Under the pieces are notes generated by a model, which saw nothing but the letters and a program-made list of their open reading frames with translations, searched no databases and was not told the origin of the DNA. DNA of 20,265 nt, from positions 1 to 20,265 of the IMG/VR virus record IMGVR_UViG_3300008262_000748; one strand, given 5' to 3'. Both the position numbers and the translations under genes were made by a program. This document shows positions 10,919 to 18,244 of the stretch, in pieces. The stretch is from a virus. Within the stretch, counting starts at the first letter, position 1. Each line of letters starts with the position of its first letter.

Positions 10919-11143
10919 TTACTCTGTAGTGTCTGGCGGAGCCTCTGGTGCAACTTCTGGGATAACCACCACTGGTGCGGTGATGTTGTATTTTTTCAGC
11001 AGGGCCAAAGCAATGGCTTCTGCTGTGTCAGGTTTGGCTGTGGCTTTTGCAAGTTCAGCAGCGTTCACCTCCAAATTACGGGCAACAACTTCAATGTCGC
11101 CGTAGCTTGTCACGATTGCTTCGATGGCTTCTGATACTTTCAT
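10919..11143 (-). CDS. Small helical protein with acidic Pro/Glu tail, unknown
   Basis: The chosen start is ATG at 11143, which overlaps the tail-tube stop as TGATG. This gives 74 residues beginning MKVSEAIEAIVTSYGD. A longer start at 11197 would overlap the tail-tube gene by 55 bases and has no support. The first 50 residues are helical and Ala-rich (NLEVNAAELAKATAKPDTAE); the last 20 are Val, Pro and Glu-rich (VVVIPEVAPEAPPDTTE) and look disordered. I know no family. Tight translational coupling to the tail-tube gene suggests it is made together with tube protein, perhaps as an assembly factor or a decoration of the tube. Confidence 0.7.
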   Translation of the reverse strand: MKVSEAIEAIVTSYGDIEVVARNLEVNAAELAKATAKPDTAEAIALALLKKYNITAPVVVIPEVAPEAPPDTTE

Positions 11144-11661
11144 CAGTTGTTCGACCAGCCGTACTGGTTGCCTCGCGGATGGATTGTGAACATGCACTTG
11201 GCTTCAGCGCCGGGTGCGGAATCAATTTGGAATTGACCCACGCGACCATTGAACGCATAAGCGACAGTGTTTGTGCCTTCCACTGCTGCAACCACAAAAG
11301 TGCGGTCCACAACACCAGAATAGGCATCAGAACGAATCTGAAGCAAAGCAGCGTCATCAGGATTCCAAGCAGCCGTGATGGTCATGCTTGTAGGAGCCGC
11401 TTGCACAGGAATCTTGTCACTTTGACGAGAGCCAGCAACACCGAAACTTGCCACCGCATCATCCATGCCGAAAGCAGGGATTGCTTCGACAGGAACAGCA
11501 ACGCCAGCAGCGCCAGTGCCGTTGGCTACAGTGCCAACAATGGTGGTCACCTGACCAGCCCAAACACTCAGGTTTGCAGTGGTCAGTGGAGTTGGAGTCG
11601 CCGCCGATTGCATCCAGAGCGATGCACTAAAGCCGGGTAGGACTTTTGCAGGAATAGACAT
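11143..11661 (-). CDS. Major tail tube protein (candidate), intact copy
   Basis: The product has 172 residues, starts MSIPAKVLPGFSASLWMQSA and ends HPRGNQYGWSNN. It is rich in Ala, Val, Thr and Gly with a beta pattern, as expected for a tube-forming protein. The core is APTSMTITAAWNP followed by DRTFVVAAVEG and then FNGRVGQFQIDSAPGAEAKC. It lies after the tail terminator and before the chaperone pair, the usual position of the major tail tube gene, and has a good AAGGAA site. A second, broken copy lies just upstream. I did not match it to a named tube family, so the call rests on position, composition and the chaperone context. A tail-tube-like minor protein is the main alternative. Confidence 0.65.
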   Translation of the reverse strand: MSIPAKVLPGFSASLWMQSAATPTPLTTANLSVWAGQVTTIVGTVANGTGAAGVAVPVEAIPAFGMDDAVASFGVAGSRQSDKIPVQAAPTSMTITAAWNPDDAALLQIRSDAYSGVVDRTFVVAAVEGTNTVAYAFNGRVGQFQIDSAPGAEAKCMFTIHPRGNQYGWSNN

Positions 11662-11670
11662 GATGATTCC

Positions 11671-12040
11671 TTATGCGTTGTTGGACCAACCGTACTGGTT
11701 GCCACGGGGGTGAATGGTAAAAGTGCATTTTGCTTCTGCACCGGGGGCAGAATCAATCTGGAACTGGCCTACGCGCCCGTTAAAGGCGTAATAGACGATG
11801 CCTGTGCCATCGGTAGCGGAAACCACGAAAGTGCGGTCAATCACGCCAGAATAAGCATCGGCCCTCATCAACAACAGGTTGGTATCGGCAGGATTCCAAG
11901 CAGCAGTAATGGTCATGCTGGTGGGCGCGGCTTGCACGGGAATCTTGTCAGACTGACGCGAACCTGCGACACCGAAACTGGCAACTGCGTCATCCTAGTA
12001 CAGCACTAAAACCGGGGAGAACTTTGTTTGGTAAAGCCAT
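11671..12040 (-). pseudogene. Broken tandem copy of the tail tube gene
   Basis: The ATG at 12040 has an AAGGA site and begins MALPNKVLPGFSA, matching residues 1-13 of the intact neighbour (MSIPAKVLPGFSA). Seven bases later the sequence picks up at the equivalent of residue 67 (DDAVASFGVAGSRQSDK). The net loss is 152 bases, not a multiple of three: the upstream frame stops after 16 codons (TGA at 11992-11990), and the downstream frame has a TAG just before the rejoin (11997-11995). After that it is open to TAA at 11673. Over the last 87 aligned residues I count 14 differences from the intact copy, about 84% identity. No obvious start precedes the intact part except GTG at 11937. It could instead reflect an assembly error between the two copies. 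Confidence 0.8.
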
Positions 12041-12077: not shown

Positions 12078-12497
12078 TTAAGCTGGAATGTCAATGGTGC
12101 AATCCAAAAAGATTTGCGCCATCTTTTCTTCGTTGTTGTAGCTGTTATACAGCCACATCACATCTGCTTTGGCAATCCAAAACCCTTCGGCAGGACTTCC
12201 CAACACGCCACTGTAGCCATGCAAAGATTGCAGAATCTGATTTGATATTGTAAATCCGTCTTCAATCTGCTGAGTAAAGATCGAAATCTGAAAGACAGGT
12301 CGATCAATACCTTTGTTGCTTTGCTGCTGACCCGTATATACAGGCTGATGCACGTTTCTGAGCATCCAAGTAATGAACTTGGGCTGTGTTGCAAAATTTC
12401 GGTTGAACGATGCGTACACAGGCACAGGCGTGACAATGTTAGCCAGTTGGTACTGGATAGCTTTGCCGTAAACAACAGGGTTGAGTTGAGTTGCCAT
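12078..12497 (-). CDS. Tail terminator-like protein
   Basis: The start ATG at 12497 shares its A with the head-closure stop (TAATG); the longer frame from 12530 would overlap that gene and lacks support. The product is 139 residues (MATQLNPVVYGKAIQYQLAN...). It shows the alternating helix and strand layout of tail-terminator proteins (SPP1 gp17/DUF3168-like): an N-terminal helix, then a stretch with PVFQISIFTQQIEDGFTISN, a helix (QILQSLHGYSG) and C-terminal strands (KMAQIFLDCTIDIPA). These proteins cap the tail tube and join it to the head. The neighbours (head closure upstream, tube downstream) fit. I see no specific motif, so the family is inferred from layout. Confidence 0.65.
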   Translation of the reverse strand: MATQLNPVVYGKAIQYQLANIVTPVPVYASFNRNFATQPKFITWMLRNVHQPVYTGQQQSNKGIDRPVFQISIFTQQIEDGFTISNQILQSLHGYSGVLGSPAEGFWIAKADVMWLYNSYNNEEKMAQIFLDCTIDIPA

Positions 12498-12841
12498 TAG
12501 ACCGCCGTTACTGGATCGTTTCGATAGCAAGTGAACATGACAGTCATCCTATCATTTGACTCACGAGCATTGTCGATGCGCCAATCTTGATTTCGATACG
12601 TAATCGAATACAAGTTTTGACTAGCAACAATTGTCTTCATGTTGCGTGTGTAGTTCACAGTGAATGTCACCATGTCTTGATACAGCCGATACTTATCAGC
12701 GATCTTGACACTGTTGGCAACATCAGCAACTCTTGCGTAAGTGGCAAACCACAATGTTTGTGTCGTAGATTGCTCTCCAAAATCTGAACTAGCAAAAGCC
12801 AGATTGTTGATTTTGATATTTTCAAAACGAGCAATTGCCAT
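12497..12841 (-). CDS. Head-closure (head-tail adaptor) protein
   Basis: The product is 114 residues (MAIARFENIKINNLAFASSD...). The central part is a beta-barrel-like sequence (LWFATYARVADVANSVKIAD, then VTFTVNYTRNMKTI, then SITYRNQDWRIDNARES) of the kind in SPP1 gp16/HK97-type head-tail adaptor proteins. The segment YRNQDWRIDNA followed by FTCYRND matches the typical late strands. It begins one base after the connector stop and its own stop overlaps the next start. It would close the portal channel and present the tail-binding surface. Confidence 0.7.
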   Translation of the reverse strand: MAIARFENIKINNLAFASSDFGEQSTTQTLWFATYARVADVANSVKIADKYRLYQDMVTFTVNYTRNMKTIVASQNLYSITYRNQDWRIDNARESNDRMTVMFTCYRNDPVTAV

Positions 12842-12842
12842 G

Positions 12843-13514
12843 TCACATCACCAGTGGCTTGTACGGACGCAGCAACGTAGTCACGCCAAAAGGAATGTCC
12901 TTCAGCTTTGTCTCTGTTGCGTTGGCACGGTTGTTGTACAGGTGTGTCAGCAGCAGCAAAGCGGCTTGCTTAATCACAGGATACGCTGCCAATGGGTTTG
13001 CCACAGTGGAGTACTCCACAATGATCGGCGCAGTCATCACCGTGTTTATGTCAGTCGGCAGGTTGTTCACAATTACCTTGTTGCCAGAAGCATCGTAGTA
13101 ATAGTTGGTGTTTGTGATCGTTTGGAACACAGGCGGGAACGCATCGTTCCAATAACCCACCGAATTGATTGTGACACCGGGCTGACTTGGCGTTGTGTTC
13201 TGACTCACCTCTGGCAAGTCCAAACTGATGGGTGACGCTACAAGGCTCTCAGAGCCGTACCAGACGCGATAAGTCACCGGGAGGATAGACATCCCCAAGT
13301 AATCTTCAATCGCTTGTCTGGTGGCGATTCCAAGGCTTGCAATGTATGTGTCCTGACTTGTGTCATCAAACAAGTTCAGTTGGTTGGTCATTTCATCAAG
13401 AGTCAACCATTGAGTTGAACTATCACGACCAATCTGCTCAACCTTTGCATAGTTGAACGGATTGCGCGTTTGTGCCCCAAAGGGCGCAGCGTATTGATAG
13501 TTGTCAACGCTCAT
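12843..13514 (-). CDS. Head-tail connector (gp6/phiE125 gp8-like)
   Basis: This gene encodes 223 residues. The N-terminal half has a helical segment, LGIATRQAIEDYLGMSILP, the pattern (helix, aromatic, Gly) seen in gp6-like connectors that form a ring under the portal. The C terminus is diagnostic in style: VIKQAALLLLTHLYNNRANA followed by IPFGVTTLLRPYKP, as in the phiE125 gp8 group. The region between (residues about 100-170) is a Pro and Tyr-rich insert. The gene starts two bases after the second capsid gene and its stop is one base before the head-closure ATG. Confidence 0.8.
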   Translation of the reverse strand: MSVDNYQYAAPFGAQTRNPFNYAKVEQIGRDSSTQWLTLDEMTNQLNLFDDTSQDTYIASLGIATRQAIEDYLGMSILPVTYRVWYGSESLVASPISLDLPEVSQNTTPSQPGVTINSVGYWNDAFPPVFQTITNTNYYYDASGNKVIVNNLPTDINTVMTAPIIVEYSTVANPLAAYPVIKQAALLLLTHLYNNRANATETKLKDIPFGVTTLLRPYKPLVM

Positions 13515-13516
13515 GT

Positions 13517-14497
13517 TTAAGTCTCGATAGAACGAACACCAGCAAAAACGTCACGCACAGTGCTGACCATACGCTTTTCAGCATACATGGTCACGAAACC
13601 GGGCGTTGTTTGCTCCATTGCCTGAATGGTCATTTCTTCCACATCAGCAATGGTCATAAAACGAGGCCAGTTTGCAAGATAAATGGACTTGCAGCCCACT
13701 GTGCCAGTTGCGTCCAAATATGGGTTTGGAATCACAGGGAAACCATACACATGCAGCAACGAACCAGCTTCAGCCGAGCCAATGTCAGCAAATGAGTAGC
13801 CACCACTGCCATGAGCATAGTCACGCAATGTTTGAATGGCTGTTGGGTGCATCATCCAAGCAGTGCCGGGCATAGACCAGTATTGCGCTGGCAAAGCGTT
13901 TGCTATTGCCGACAAAGTTTCAGCCTCAAGGCCACCAGTGTTGTTGTAGCCAACAGTGCGGAGAGTATGCAAACCGTTTGTGATGGCTGTACCGCTTGTA
14001 CCGAAAGCAGCAGCAGCACCAGCAGCGCCGGGATAACTGTTCAGGCCGCACGATGCGCCTTCCAGTTGAGCAAATTCCATCATCAGGTCTTCAACCAATT
14101 CAGATTGCAGACCATTGACATCAGACAGAACAGCCGAGCGAACAGGCATCTGTGCCGTAATCACGCGAGTCGGCAACTGCCAAATGCTTGTGTCAATGTT
14201 CGGTGAACCACTGTTGGCGTTAATTGTGTAACCCCAAGGGTTTGTGCTGTTTGCAGCGTTACCAGTTTTGGCAACAAACTGAACAGCGGAATTACCGGGA
14301 ACCTTGATGTTCCGTGCGCCTTGGCGAAACGGGTTTGCATAACGCAGGGTAGCGAATGCGTCATCAAAGTGAGTGCGACCACCGACATTCAAGCCTGAAC
14401 CAGTGATAGCAGATGCCTCGCGCAAGTCAATCGTGACTTTATCGCCAGTTTCCAATGTTTGCTTAATTCCAGACAGGATGCGTTCGGTGATGGTCAT
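13517..14497 (-). CDS. Second HK97-fold capsid protein, no delta domain
   Basis: This 326-residue protein is a clear paralogue of the upstream capsid protein. REASAITGSGLNVGGRTHFD here aligns to KEASALTGGGDGKGGRTGYD there; both then have a WGYxI segment, an EDTSIWQL/NIDTSIWQL segment, AAFGTSGTxxTxGLH, ALPxQYW, and close with TTPGFVTMYAEKRM versus TLPGFITFFGEKRL. It has only 26 residues before the shared part, against about 105 upstream, so it lacks the scaffold (delta) domain. The loop between the mid segments is also shorter. It lies behind a strong terminator and has its own AGGAAC site. HK97-fold paralogues can act as penton or minor capsid subunits in other phages. A role as vertex or decoy subunit is inference. 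Confidence 0.85.
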   Translation of the reverse strand: MTITERILSGIKQTLETGDKVTIDLREASAITGSGLNVGGRTHFDDAFATLRYANPFRQGARNIKVPGNSAVQFVAKTGNAANSTNPWGYTINANSGSPNIDTSIWQLPTRVITAQMPVRSAVLSDVNGLQSELVEDLMMEFAQLEGASCGLNSYPGAAGAAAAFGTSGTAITNGLHTLRTVGYNNTGGLEAETLSAIANALPAQYWSMPGTAWMMHPTAIQTLRDYAHGSGGYSFADIGSAEAGSLLHVYGFPVIPNPYLDATGTVGCKSIYLANWPRFMTIADVEEMTIQAMEQTTPGFVTMYAEKRMVSTVRDVFAGVRSIET

Positions 14498-14519
14498 AAC
14501 AGTTCCTAAATTGTTGGCA

Positions 14520-14547
14520 CAAAAAGGAGGGGGAATTACCCCCCTCC
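14520..14547 (-). terminator. Intrinsic terminator after the first capsid gene
   Basis: On the minus strand a perfect 8-base stem, GGAGGGGG (14547-14540) and CCCCCTCC (14533-14526), closes a 6-base loop and is followed by TTTTTG. It lies six bases after the capsid stop. The plus strand also has a short T run after the stem, so it could act in both directions. It is the only clear terminator in the block. Confidence 0.9.
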
Positions 14548-14553
14548 GTTTTA

Positions 14554-15903
14554 TCAGGTCGCAGTGCCTGTCGAGCGATAGCGCACCAGTGCGTTTGGAT
14601 CACGAACTGATACCGCAAGCCTCTTTTCCCCGAAAAATGTAATAAATCCGGGTAATGTTTGGTCGTAGCGGCGCATCACCATGTTCAGACGATCAATGAT
14701 GGTGTGACCACGGCTCCAATCGCCAAAGTACATTGGGTACAGGCTAGTAGTGCCAGCAGAACCAGTTGTGGCTTGGCTTGGGTTGTCCAAGTACTTGTTC
14801 ATTACCACATCAAAGCCGAGCATTTGACCAATGATGCCATCGGGGTTCAACGACTCAGTAGAGTTGAAGATTGGACGGCCATTGGTGTCTTGCAGACCAC
14901 GGATAGCTTGAGCCAAGATTGGGCTGACCATGAACTTGGCGTTCGTAGTCCAGTACTGTTGTGGCAAAGCGTAGATCGTGTTGATAACGTCTTTGTACTG
15001 GATGTTGTTAGCACCCACAGTGTTGGCGTTGGTGGTGATCTGGTCGTAAGTAGCCAGCGAATGCAGACCGCTTGTAGAGCCAGTACCAGAAGTGCCGAAC
15101 GCAGCAGTAGACGATGTACCACCAGTGTAGGTAGCGTTAGAACCAGCGTACTGATCCAGACCACGCAGACCGTTTGTACCACCGTAAGGGTTGGTGCTGG
15201 ACTGAGCGGCTTGGTCATTATTCTGAATCATCGAAAGTGCCTCGCTCTGGGCGAATGAGGCCAGCATGTCATCAACAACAACAGCTTCCAAACCATCAAT
15301 GTCATCCAGCGCAGCAGTACGGATTGGGAACTGCACGTTCAAGTCTTGCAGAACCAATTGCCAGATGCTGGTGTCTTCAGTAGTGGCTGCACCGTTGTTC
15401 TGGATCGCATAGCCCCATGCTTCACCCGGGTTGCCCGTGCGCACACGAAACTGGTACGAGGAACCGTCAGTTGCCACAGTGCGCGACAGACCACGCATTG
15501 GGTTCATCAGACGCAGTGCTGTAAAGGTAGGATCGTAGCCAGTACGACCACCCTTGCCATCACCACCACCTGTCAGAGCCGAGGCTTCTTTCAGGTAAGC
15601 GTCCATTTGGCTTTCGTCTGCAAAGATTTGCAGTTCTTTTTCCAAACGGCTGTTGCCTTTGTAGAAAGTAGCCAATTGCTCACGCACAGAACGGTTCACA
15701 TCTTGGCGAACGGTCTTGGCAGGGGCGCGAATGAACTCAGGCATCTGGATAGAAGCAACTTTAGCTTCCAGAGCAGCGACTTTTTCAGCCATTTCAGCTT
15801 TGACAGCCTCAACAGCAGCGGGGATTTTTGCTTCAACAGCAGTGATGCTTTCGGCTTGTTTAGCTTCGATAGCATCCAATTTTTCGATGATTTCTTTGGA
15901 CAT
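14554..15903 (-). CDS. Major capsid protein, HK97 type, with delta domain
   Basis: The product is 449 residues. Residues 1-55 are a predicted coiled coil (EAKQAESITAVEAKIPAAVE, then AEMAEKVAALEAKVASI), the scaffold-like delta domain, with a linker to about residue 105. The capsid core follows (KEASALTGGGDGKGGR onwards) and ends with GFITFFGEKRLAVSVRDPNA, the typical P-domain close. The prohead protease directly upstream would remove the N-terminal part during maturation; I cannot place the exact site. The start ATG comes three bases after the protease stop, with an AAGG site. A terminator follows at once, so this gene is likely the last highly expressed one in the head transcript. Confidence 0.93.
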   Translation of the reverse strand: MSKEIIEKLDAIEAKQAESITAVEAKIPAAVEAVKAEMAEKVAALEAKVASIQMPEFIRAPAKTVRQDVNRSVREQLATFYKGNSRLEKELQIFADESQMDAYLKEASALTGGGDGKGGRTGYDPTFTALRLMNPMRGLSRTVATDGSSYQFRVRTGNPGEAWGYAIQNNGAATTEDTSIWQLVLQDLNVQFPIRTAALDDIDGLEAVVVDDMLASFAQSEALSMIQNNDQAAQSSTNPYGGTNGLRGLDQYAGSNATYTGGTSSTAAFGTSGTGSTSGLHSLATYDQITTNANTVGANNIQYKDVINTIYALPQQYWTTNAKFMVSPILAQAIRGLQDTNGRPIFNSTESLNPDGIIGQMLGFDVVMNKYLDNPSQATTGSAGTTSLYPMYFGDWSRGHTIIDRLNMVMRRYDQTLPGFITFFGEKRLAVSVRDPNALVRYRSTGTAT

Positions 15904-15906
15904 GAT

Positions 15907-16707
15907 TTAACCTTTAAGGCGTTGGTCAAGGAGTTTCAGAAGTTCACGTTGCTCAAGAGCCGCGAGAATTTCCGCTTCGGTTGCCTCCGCATCAGAATCA
16001 CTCTGAGTTGGCGCATTTTCAATAGGCTCCTTTACAGCATCACGCTGCTCAATCACCGTCTTGAATACAGATGCGGCGGCAACCGACATCTGCTTGGACA
16101 GACCTGCATCCCGCAAGGCTTCTTCCAATACTTTCAAGTCAGCAGAACCATCAGGTCGGAAATACTCCAACTTTTTGATTTCTGCCTTCATGTTATTTGG
16201 GTGCATCACTACGCTGGTTTCACGCAAACCACCTTTGGTGATTTGGAAATAACCAGACTCGTATGGGTCATCAGAACCAATAGTCATTGGCGTACCGTCT
16301 TCTTTGACCCACTGATATTCTTCAGCATAAGCGCCAACAGAAACGCCGCCAAACATATTGGGGCTTTCTTTCATCACTTGGTACAAATCAGAGCCAGCAG
16401 TGGTGTTGACGTACAGACGGCCGCAAGCATTCATGCCATCGTCATCCATCTCAAAACTCGTCCACTCCCCAACGGGAATAGCATCTGAATTGTGGTTGAC
16501 GTACATTGGAAGTGGTCGGCCCATCTTGGCAAACTCGCTAGCCCATTGCATAAAGCCTTCTGGCTTGTAGAAGAACTTGCGACCATCAGCGCCTTCTCGC
16601 GCACCCCAAGTCGTGATACGAGCCTCAATCAGTCCAGACGATTCGCCGCTTTCGGCTTTCTCGTTCAAGTTCAGTTTGGCTTCGCAGATTAGATTCAATG
16701 TCTTCAT
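15907..16707 (-). CDS. HK97-family prohead protease
   Basis: The 266-residue protein is a herpesvirus-assemblin-like serine protease that cleaves the capsid delta domain inside the prohead. The N-terminal core has ITTWGAREGADGRKFFYKPE, then PMYVNHNSDAIPVGEWTSFE with the likely catalytic His72. GGVSVGAYAEEY carries the likely catalytic Ser123 in the family's G-x-S strand, and LRETSVVMHPNN has the likely third residue Glu163. After about residue 180 is an acidic tail (PTQSDSDAEATEAEILAALE) that may scaffold. The start ATG has AGGGG six bases upstream; this site is part of a potential RNA switch. It is flanked by portal and capsid genes, the standard HK97 order. Confidence 0.92.
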   Translation of the reverse strand: MKTLNLICEAKLNLNEKAESGESSGLIEARITTWGAREGADGRKFFYKPEGFMQWASEFAKMGRPLPMYVNHNSDAIPVGEWTSFEMDDDGMNACGRLYVNTTAGSDLYQVMKESPNMFGGVSVGAYAEEYQWVKEDGTPMTIGSDDPYESGYFQITKGGLRETSVVMHPNNMKAEIKKLEYFRPDGSADLKVLEEALRDAGLSKQMSVAAASVFKTVIEQRDAVKEPIENAPTQSDSDAEATEAEILAALEQRELLKLLDQRLKG

Positions 16708-16846: not shown

Positions 16847-18244
16847 TCAAGTTGTACCGATGTTCATCTTTTTGGTCTGATTGCCACCGCCGCCACCAGT
16901 ATCTTGGGCGCTTGAGCCGGGTACAGGTTCAGCATCTTTGGCATCTTTGACCAACTCGTCACCACCCTCAACAGATGGCAAATTCATGTAGTTACGTGCT
17001 TCGTTTGGTGTCATAATGCCACCCTTTACGCCAGCAGTCGCAAAGTTCATCTGGTCCAAAGGCGCACCCTTCAAGAAGTCCTTGGTGTCAAACTCGACAC
17101 ACAGAGAAGGATAGCCATCAAGCAAATGCTGCGTCAATTTCTGCTGAATATTGACGATTGTCGGGTACATGGTGGTTTTGTAGAACTCGTCCAACGCCGT
17201 TTGGCTGTTGTTGAACTTGCCATCATGGATGCCGATCATGGAAGGCGGCACACCAAACAAACCACAGATGCGGCGCATGGTCTGTAGCTTCAAAGCAGCG
17301 GCATCAGCGTCTTGCAGCGTCAGCATCTCCAGCTTCTGATACTTCATGCCCTGATCCAGCAACATGCCTTGACCCGGCTTGCTTGGGTCGCTGGTTTTGC
17401 TGCCTGTCATGTTGTTCCACGCCTCTTTAAGACGGGCGGCAATCTCTTTGTACTTGCCATCAGGAATAATCTGGTCGGTCACAAACATGCCAGATGGTTT
17501 TGCGCCATTCTGCATGACAAAGTTGGCGTACAAGTCAATGTCTTGGTCCAAGCCAACCAACTCAGTTGCCAAAATCGCCTTGTTGAAACCAGCCGAGCCT
17601 TGCCACGCCATTTCCTTGCTGTGCATGACTTGGTAATACTTGAACTCATGGTCTTTGTTGAAACCATAGCTAGGCGTAGACAGACGGAAGGTCGGATAGC
17701 GTGTAGGCGTGATGTTCACCGCAATCAGCGTTGAATCCAGCACATACATTTCCAATGGTGTTTCGGTCGAACTGTTCTGGTCTTTTCTCCACCACAGGGT
17801 AAAAGCCTCACCAGACAATTCGTACCACATTAACCACTGATACCAGAACTCGTATTTGCTCTGGAAGTTGTTGGGCGTATTCAGCAGCTTGGCAACTTGC
17901 TTGGCCTTGGCCTTGTCTCGCGTACCAACACCCTCGCCACGGATGGCATCAACGGTTTTACCGTCTGCTGTCTCGCAGCAAATCTTGATTGGCAACTGAG
18001 CCAAAGCCCGTGCTTTCACGCCCACACACGACATGATGGTGCTGTTTCGCGTCAGCACCGACATATCCACCGGGCGACCAGCAGTTGTGGTGCTGGCAGT
18101 GGTCACATAGAGGATTTGAGTGTTTACGCCGGCACGTTTGTCACTGCCTTGATAAACAATGTTGTTACCCAAGGCTGTCTGACCGAACAACGTATTGCTC
18201 TCAGACTGAGTGTTTTTACGCTTGAAAATGTCAAGAATTGCCAT
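16847..18244 (-). CDS. Portal protein, HK97 family
   Basis: The 465-residue portal forms the dodecameric ring at one head vertex, through which DNA enters and leaves. Family features in order: IMSCVGVKARALAQLPIKIC at residues 70-89, the helical stem region around 226-250, GQGMLLDQGMKYQKLEM at 291-307, then a wing/crown helix LQTMRRICGLFGVPPSMIGI at 320-339, SQTALDEFYKTTMYP at 347-361, and the C-terminal MTPNEARNYMNLPSVEGGDE at 411-430. The last 30 residues are Gly-rich and disordered. The start has a GAGGGGAA site 24 bases after the terminase stop. Confidence 0.93.
   Translation of the reverse strand: MAILDIFKRKNTQSESNTLFGQTALGNNIVYQGSDKRAGVNTQILYVTTASTTTAGRPVDMSVLTRNSTIMSCVGVKARALAQLPIKICCETADGKTVDAIRGEGVGTRDKAKAKQVAKLLNTPNNFQSKYEFWYQWLMWYELSGEAFTLWWRKDQNSSTETPLEMYVLDSTLIAVNITPTRYPTFRLSTPSYGFNKDHEFKYYQVMHSKEMAWQGSAGFNKAILATELVGLDQDIDLYANFVMQNGAKPSGMFVTDQIIPDGKYKEIAARLKEAWNNMTGSKTSDPSKPGQGMLLDQGMKYQKLEMLTLQDADAAALKLQTMRRICGLFGVPPSMIGIHDGKFNNSQTALDEFYKTTMYPTIVNIQQKLTQHLLDGYPSLCVEFDTKDFLKGAPLDQMNFATAGVKGGIMTPNEARNYMNLPSVEGGDELVKDAKDAEPVPGSSAQDTGGGGGNQTKKMNIGTT

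Follow-up and report, generated by a model that had tools for sequence, protein, structure and literature searches.

Why should a small tailed phage carry, side by side, two genes for HK97-fold capsid proteins, and what might the second of them do? The question is raised by a 20,265-base IMG/VR record (hereafter the window, meaning the whole stretch of DNA that was analysed), in which the structural genes lie on the minus strand in the order TerS, TerL, portal, S78 protease, MCP1, MCP2, head-tail adaptor, other neck genes, and tail genes. The features of the locus are collected in Table 1. The two capsid genes, MCP1 and MCP2, are separated by a spacing of only 56 nt.

Table 1. Features of the capsid locus, with positions in the window and the basis of each assignment.
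Feature	Position	Strand	Basis
Portal protein	16847..18244	-	PF04860 8.8e-60
Prohead protease (S78 family, Peptidase_S78), directly upstream of MCP1	15907..16707	-	PF04586 3.4e-7; PHROG head maturation protease
MCP1, HK97-fold major capsid protein, 449 aa, N-terminal helical (delta-like) domain	14554..15903	-	PF05065 3.7e-30; PHROG major head protein
MCP1 residues 1-62, predicted long helix and linker, putative delta/scaffold region without MCP2 counterpart	15718..15903	-	low-confidence AF2 model; sequence/profile comparison
Intrinsic-terminator-like GC-rich hairpin, 9-bp stem, 4-nt loop, TTTTTG tail	14526..14547	-	sequence
MCP2, second HK97-fold capsid protein without long N-terminal domain, 326 aa	13517..14497	-	PF05065 1.9e-18; PHROG major head protein
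MCP2 residues 2-17, conserved short N-terminal helix	14447..14494	-	AF2 model; alignment
GGCCTGAACA, site of contig-specific 63-nt deletion (21 codons) relative to L002/L003	14038..14047	-	contig comparison
Head-tail adaptor/connector, directly downstream of MCP2	12843..13514	-	PF05135 3.9e-5; PHROG head-tail adaptor

Both products match the Pfam family Phage_capsid (PF05065), with 105.7 bits for MCP1 and 67.3 bits for MCP2 against a curated cut-off of 24.2. In a direct BLASTP comparison, residues 104-441 of MCP1 align with residues 25-322 of MCP2 at 35% identity (E 9e-55), and a profile-profile comparison of the two gives a probability of 100 (E 2e-86); chance or distant similarity is ruled out by these two values. 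Since both proteins match Phage_capsid and each other, the pair of neighbouring HK97-fold paralogues noticed in a preliminary description of the sequence is confirmed, and the gene adjoining MCP1 is indeed that of a prohead protease, as a Peptidase_S78 match indicates.

The AF2 model of MCP2, built for a 347-residue form of the protein, reaches a pLDDT of 75 and a pTM of 0.76. In a fold comparison (VIA) it scores Z 21.4 to the GTA capsid over 260 residues and 16.4 to HK97 (1ohg), and it matches the GTA capsid, cf-PICI, HK97, D3, and encapsulins, with chains 9bje/9bix of a Family 2B encapsulin from Streptomyces lydicus among the structures listed. The MCP1 model is weak (pLDDT 55) and has the same fold matches. 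At the sequence level, the nearest solved relative of MCP1 is the Rhodobacter GTA capsid (6tb9, 5e-6), and a PDB sequence search with MCP2 gave no match. As modelled, MCP2 has the elements of a whole shell subunit. Furthermore, 62 positions are both conserved and identical in the two paralogues, and 12 are fixed but different.

The length of 326 residues first given for MCP2 is true of the window contig but not of its nearest relatives, in which the usual length is 347. Contigs L002 and L003 match the window at 100% identity over 4-6 kb to one side and at 99.9-100% to the other, and their MCP2 genes carry 63 extra nucleotides exactly between two copies of GGCCTGAACA, whereas the window has an in-frame deletion there. 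Most complete relatives listed have an MCP2 of 342-349 residues, and some ORFs are given as longer and have other possible starts upstream. Two further small indels, in both directions, separate the window from L003 in neighbouring genes. Small indels in both of these otherwise identical contigs point to assembly artefacts or microdeletions, and the MCP2 deletion in the window is likely an assembly error or a population microdeletion. In the same region, two neck-gene ORFs of the window (12497-12841 and 12078-12530, minus strand) are fused into one in L003 (7616-8347), from which about 32 nt of the window sequence are missing.

Tandem paralogy was also observed among the tail genes, where two ORFs resembling a major tail protein follow each other (window 11143-11661 and 11671-11937, minus strand; L003 8385-8879 and 8889-9407). 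This pair is 74% identical in L003, and the window's first copy is truncated by a deletion of about 125 nt. Of the 190 spanning loci among the matches listed, 98 carry both ORFs and 92 a single one.

The capsid paralogues differ at their N-termini. The low-confidence AF2 model of MCP1 shows a long helix (residues 2-50) and a second helix (66-82) before the core, and the MCP2 model shows one helix at residues 3-17 and then the core. MCP1 residues 1-62 are without counterpart in MCP2, in line with the earlier view that the second copy lacks the scaffold region. The accompanying claim that MCP2 starts exactly at the shared core, as if pre-processed, does not hold: about 24 residues come first, among them a conserved predicted helix in which I7, L8, and K12 are nearly invariant in the alignment. 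In a profile scan, MCP2 residues 2-17 fit best on MCP1 from residue 64 (rank 1 among all offsets, z 3.5), and the match between the MCP2 model and HK97 prohead I (8fqk) starts at residue 2 of the former and at residue 76 of the latter, a position in the C-terminal portion of HK97's delta domain. These results are suggestive of a correspondence between the MCP2 N-terminal helix and MCP1 from residue 64, and of a capsid protein that has shed the distal scaffold helix and kept the last segment, rather than of a pre-processed core. An origin of the first MCP2 residues from the extreme tip of MCP1, as in one alignment, was rejected, as the profile scan prefers MCP1 64-80. According to the preliminary description, the second protein may join only through the scaffold domains of the first copy; the conserved helix leaves room for prohead contacts of MCP2's own.

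Six scans of IMG/VR with MCP1 or MCP2 sequences of different branches yielded several hundred loci among the matches listed. Linkage was counted over loci found through MCP1 only, with repeats removed by MCP1 3' sequence and at least 700 nt required downstream. MCP2 is present in all 274 of the 274 distinct MCP1 loci with downstream room (IMG/VR, among the matches listed), as it was in an earlier subset (188 of 188 MCP1 loci, likewise among the matches listed). Within the group as sampled, the two genes are an obligate pair; the sample reaches as far as the peptide patterns used, to an MCP1 pairwise identity of about 58% and up, so more distant single-gene relatives could exist. Median dN/dS is 0.14 for MCP1 and for MCP2, with no pair above 0.5, and both genes are under similar purifying selection. 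Their divergences correlate (r 0.72, with none as high in 999 permutations), MCP2 being the faster. The preliminary description had considered selection on both genes probable and would have been contradicted by a second gene decayed or missing in close relatives; selection on both is borne out, and neither decay nor loss of the second gene was seen among the matches listed. Two apparent irregularities of MCP1 were dismissed. Introns were considered for tblastn spans of about 1900 nt (L109, L145, and others), in which the MCP1 ORFs proved intact with no Rfam hit and which most likely represent MCP1 joined with part of MCP2; an inserted domain was considered for spans of 1600 nt (L299, L324, L444), in which ORF lengths are normal.

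The group that carries the pair is a large, almost uncultured set of small tailed phages with genomes of about 38 kb. The sole cultured member found is Methylophilaceae phage P19250A (KX815270), with a circular genome of 38,749 bp, and several group contigs measure 36-41 kb. In P19250A, MCP1 (59%) and MCP2 (52%) are adjacent with a hairpin between them, and the phage's record annotates MCP2 only as "hypothetical protein", with no role proposed. A search of a genome collection gave a single match, contig L082 (JAHEYD010000010.1), filed under a Candidatus Nitrosotalea MAG; it is a typical group contig with MCP1, hairpin, and MCP2, and probably a mis-binned phage contig.

The origin of the pair was addressed with a tree of 25 MCP1/MCP2 pairs and four single-capsid phages as outgroup. 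MCP2 forms one clade (support 100/100) whose stem branch is 1.4 changes per site long, and MCP1 and MCP2 together split from the outgroups at 100/100. A single, fully supported MCP2 clade on a long branch points to one ancient duplication, the exact root of which inside the group is not fixed because MCP1 forms no clade of its own in most bootstraps. In the single-capsid outgroups, the place of MCP2 is taken by small or unrelated genes.

The hairpin between the two genes is a regular feature of the locus. Among the matches listed, 252 of 269 distinct sequences have it no more than 75 nt from the MCP1 stop. Compared by junction, again among the matches listed, a hairpin follows MCP1 in 255 of 271 loci, and TerL, portal, protease, MCP2, or adaptor in 0-2 of about 190-260 each; shuffled sequences contain one in 6 of 801 cases. 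The stems vary but stay paired, with 73 distinct complementary arm pairs and with G-C, C-G, A-T, and T-A pairs all found at most stem positions. This variety illustrates covariation and is no test of it, because the hairpin finder requires pairing; the real test is the contrast with the other junctions and with the shuffles. The related single-capsid outgroup phages have a hairpin after their capsid gene too, at the same place, and it was therefore discarded as a signature specific to the pair. The element would be older than the pair, or simply common. Given its occurrence in single-capsid phages, it probably works for MCP1 in any case and suggests no more than that MCP2 is not required in amounts like those of MCP1. 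The hairpin may end transcription or stabilise the mRNA; with MCP2 beyond it, it would be a boundary that presumably favours MCP1 and leaves MCP2 on the low-expression side. In some loci the stretch between the MCP1 hairpin and MCP2 holds an insert of about 600 nt, in which an ORF encodes about 200 residues (L015 5360-5992; similar in L017, L040/L228, and L055). The ORF looks GIY-YIG-like by eye, has no Pfam hit, and is possibly a free-standing homing endonuclease.

The interpretation that we prefer, with middling confidence, is that MCP2 may serve the capsid as a specialised subunit in few copies, most likely as the penton, in a role like that of T4 gp24 and with an independent origin. MCP1 and MCP2 go back to one capsid gene of HK97 type that was duplicated in tandem long ago. 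MCP1, with its scaffold-like (delta) region, the protease gene next to it, and the terminator-like hairpin behind it, is the main shell protein, while MCP2 would be read from the transcripts that pass the hairpin, along with the connector and tail genes, and thus be made in smaller amounts. It would join the prohead of MCP1 as a dedicated low-copy subunit, most likely in pentons at the non-portal vertices. For genomes of HK97 size (~38 kb) a T=7 head is expected, in which 11 MCP2 pentamers (55 copies) would stand beside about 360 MCP1 copies in hexamers. We infer the lower expression, the co-assembly, the T number, and the penton location; pentons or a minor class of capsomer, the roles suggested in the preliminary description, would fit everything seen.

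The vertex role is favoured because T4 gp23 and gp24 show a similar N-terminal asymmetry. Gp24 forms the vertex pentamers of T4, was probably duplicated from gp23, and has a propeptide of 10 residues versus 65 in gp23 (PMC9958956). In both systems one phage encodes two diverged HK97-fold paralogues, and the N-terminal region is long in the main protein and short in the minor one; the short conserved helix of MCP2 is a candidate counterpart of the gp24 propeptide. In contrast, T4 is a large myovirus with a prolate head and a separate core scaffold, whereas the genomes described here are of about 38 kb, with an S78 protease and HK97-type gene order, and a vertex location of MCP2 is putative. In a Pfam scan, MCP2 matched PF05065 only and not the gp23/gp24 sequence family. 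Likeness in fold and in gene order (TerL-portal-protease-capsid-connector) exists to HK97 gp5, the Rhodobacter capsulatus GTA protein Rcc01687, and D3, all of them among the best fold matches of MCP2. The shells of the GTA and D3 are built by one protein, as is that of HK97, while a second dedicated gene is always present in this group. According to a 2026 review, HK97, P22, and other phages with genomes of about 40 kb make pentons and hexons from one gene product (PMC13185644), so a separate penton protein is not required by capsid geometry.

MCP2 might be part of the virion in places other than the vertices, mixed into hexamers as a mosaic shell or set in a special ring, for example in capsomers around the portal. 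Such mixing is known from the Family 2B encapsulin of Streptomyces lydicus, in which two HK97-fold proteins co-assemble in variable composition (PMC12407261), and the whole-subunit elements in the MCP2 model would make contacts with MCP1 plausible. However, this encapsulin is a cellular compartment and an irregular mixture rather than a phage head, without portal, terminase, or protease. An encapsulin gene would also be sought outside a phage structural operon, whereas MCP2 lies between the capsid and adaptor genes of a TerL-portal-protease operon. The strictly conserved presence of MCP2 at one set position suggests that its role is a defined one, though compatible with a mosaic or a ring, and we consider such an arrangement unlikely but a serious contender.

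A role confined to assembly, in nucleation, size control, or alternative small heads, with MCP2 rare or absent in mature infectious virions, appears more doubtful still. It would agree with the missing long scaffold region and with the presumed minor-side expression, and in satellite systems accessory head proteins are able to change the size of the capsid. Against it, MCP2 keeps the full HK97 fold under the same constraint as MCP1, and the 62 positions conserved and identical between the paralogues are as expected of a shell subunit. It is highly improbable that MCP2 is a mere duplicate, redundant or in decay, with nothing of its own to do. Compared with its relatives, the window's copy is short by 21 codons, but the reading frame is kept across the deletion, contigs that are nearly identical elsewhere lack it, and decay is contradicted by the unbroken linkage among the matches listed (274/274) together with a dN/dS of 0.14 and no pair above 0.5.

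A literature search of open-licence papers found no published account of such a capsid pair in HK97-type phages. We tentatively propose, with slightly less assurance than for the preferred interpretation of MCP2 itself, that this widespread group of phages, with HK97-type head genes and genomes of about 38 kb, independently evolved a dedicated penton protein without a delta domain. Separate vertex and hexamer capsid proteins are so far firmly known mainly from the much larger T4, which the 2026 review names, for its larger genome, as the phage better able to house a separate penton protein (PMC13185644). Here, a smaller-genome group has an obligate second capsid gene, with no exception in the sample, that is currently hidden as a hypothetical protein; with one cultured member, P19250A, the pair is testable. 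The group offers a compact system for studying why capsid genes duplicate, how their dose is set, and how an HK97-type prohead takes in a subunit without most of the delta region. If the proposal is true, the division of labour between pentons and hexons would not be confined to large T4-like heads.
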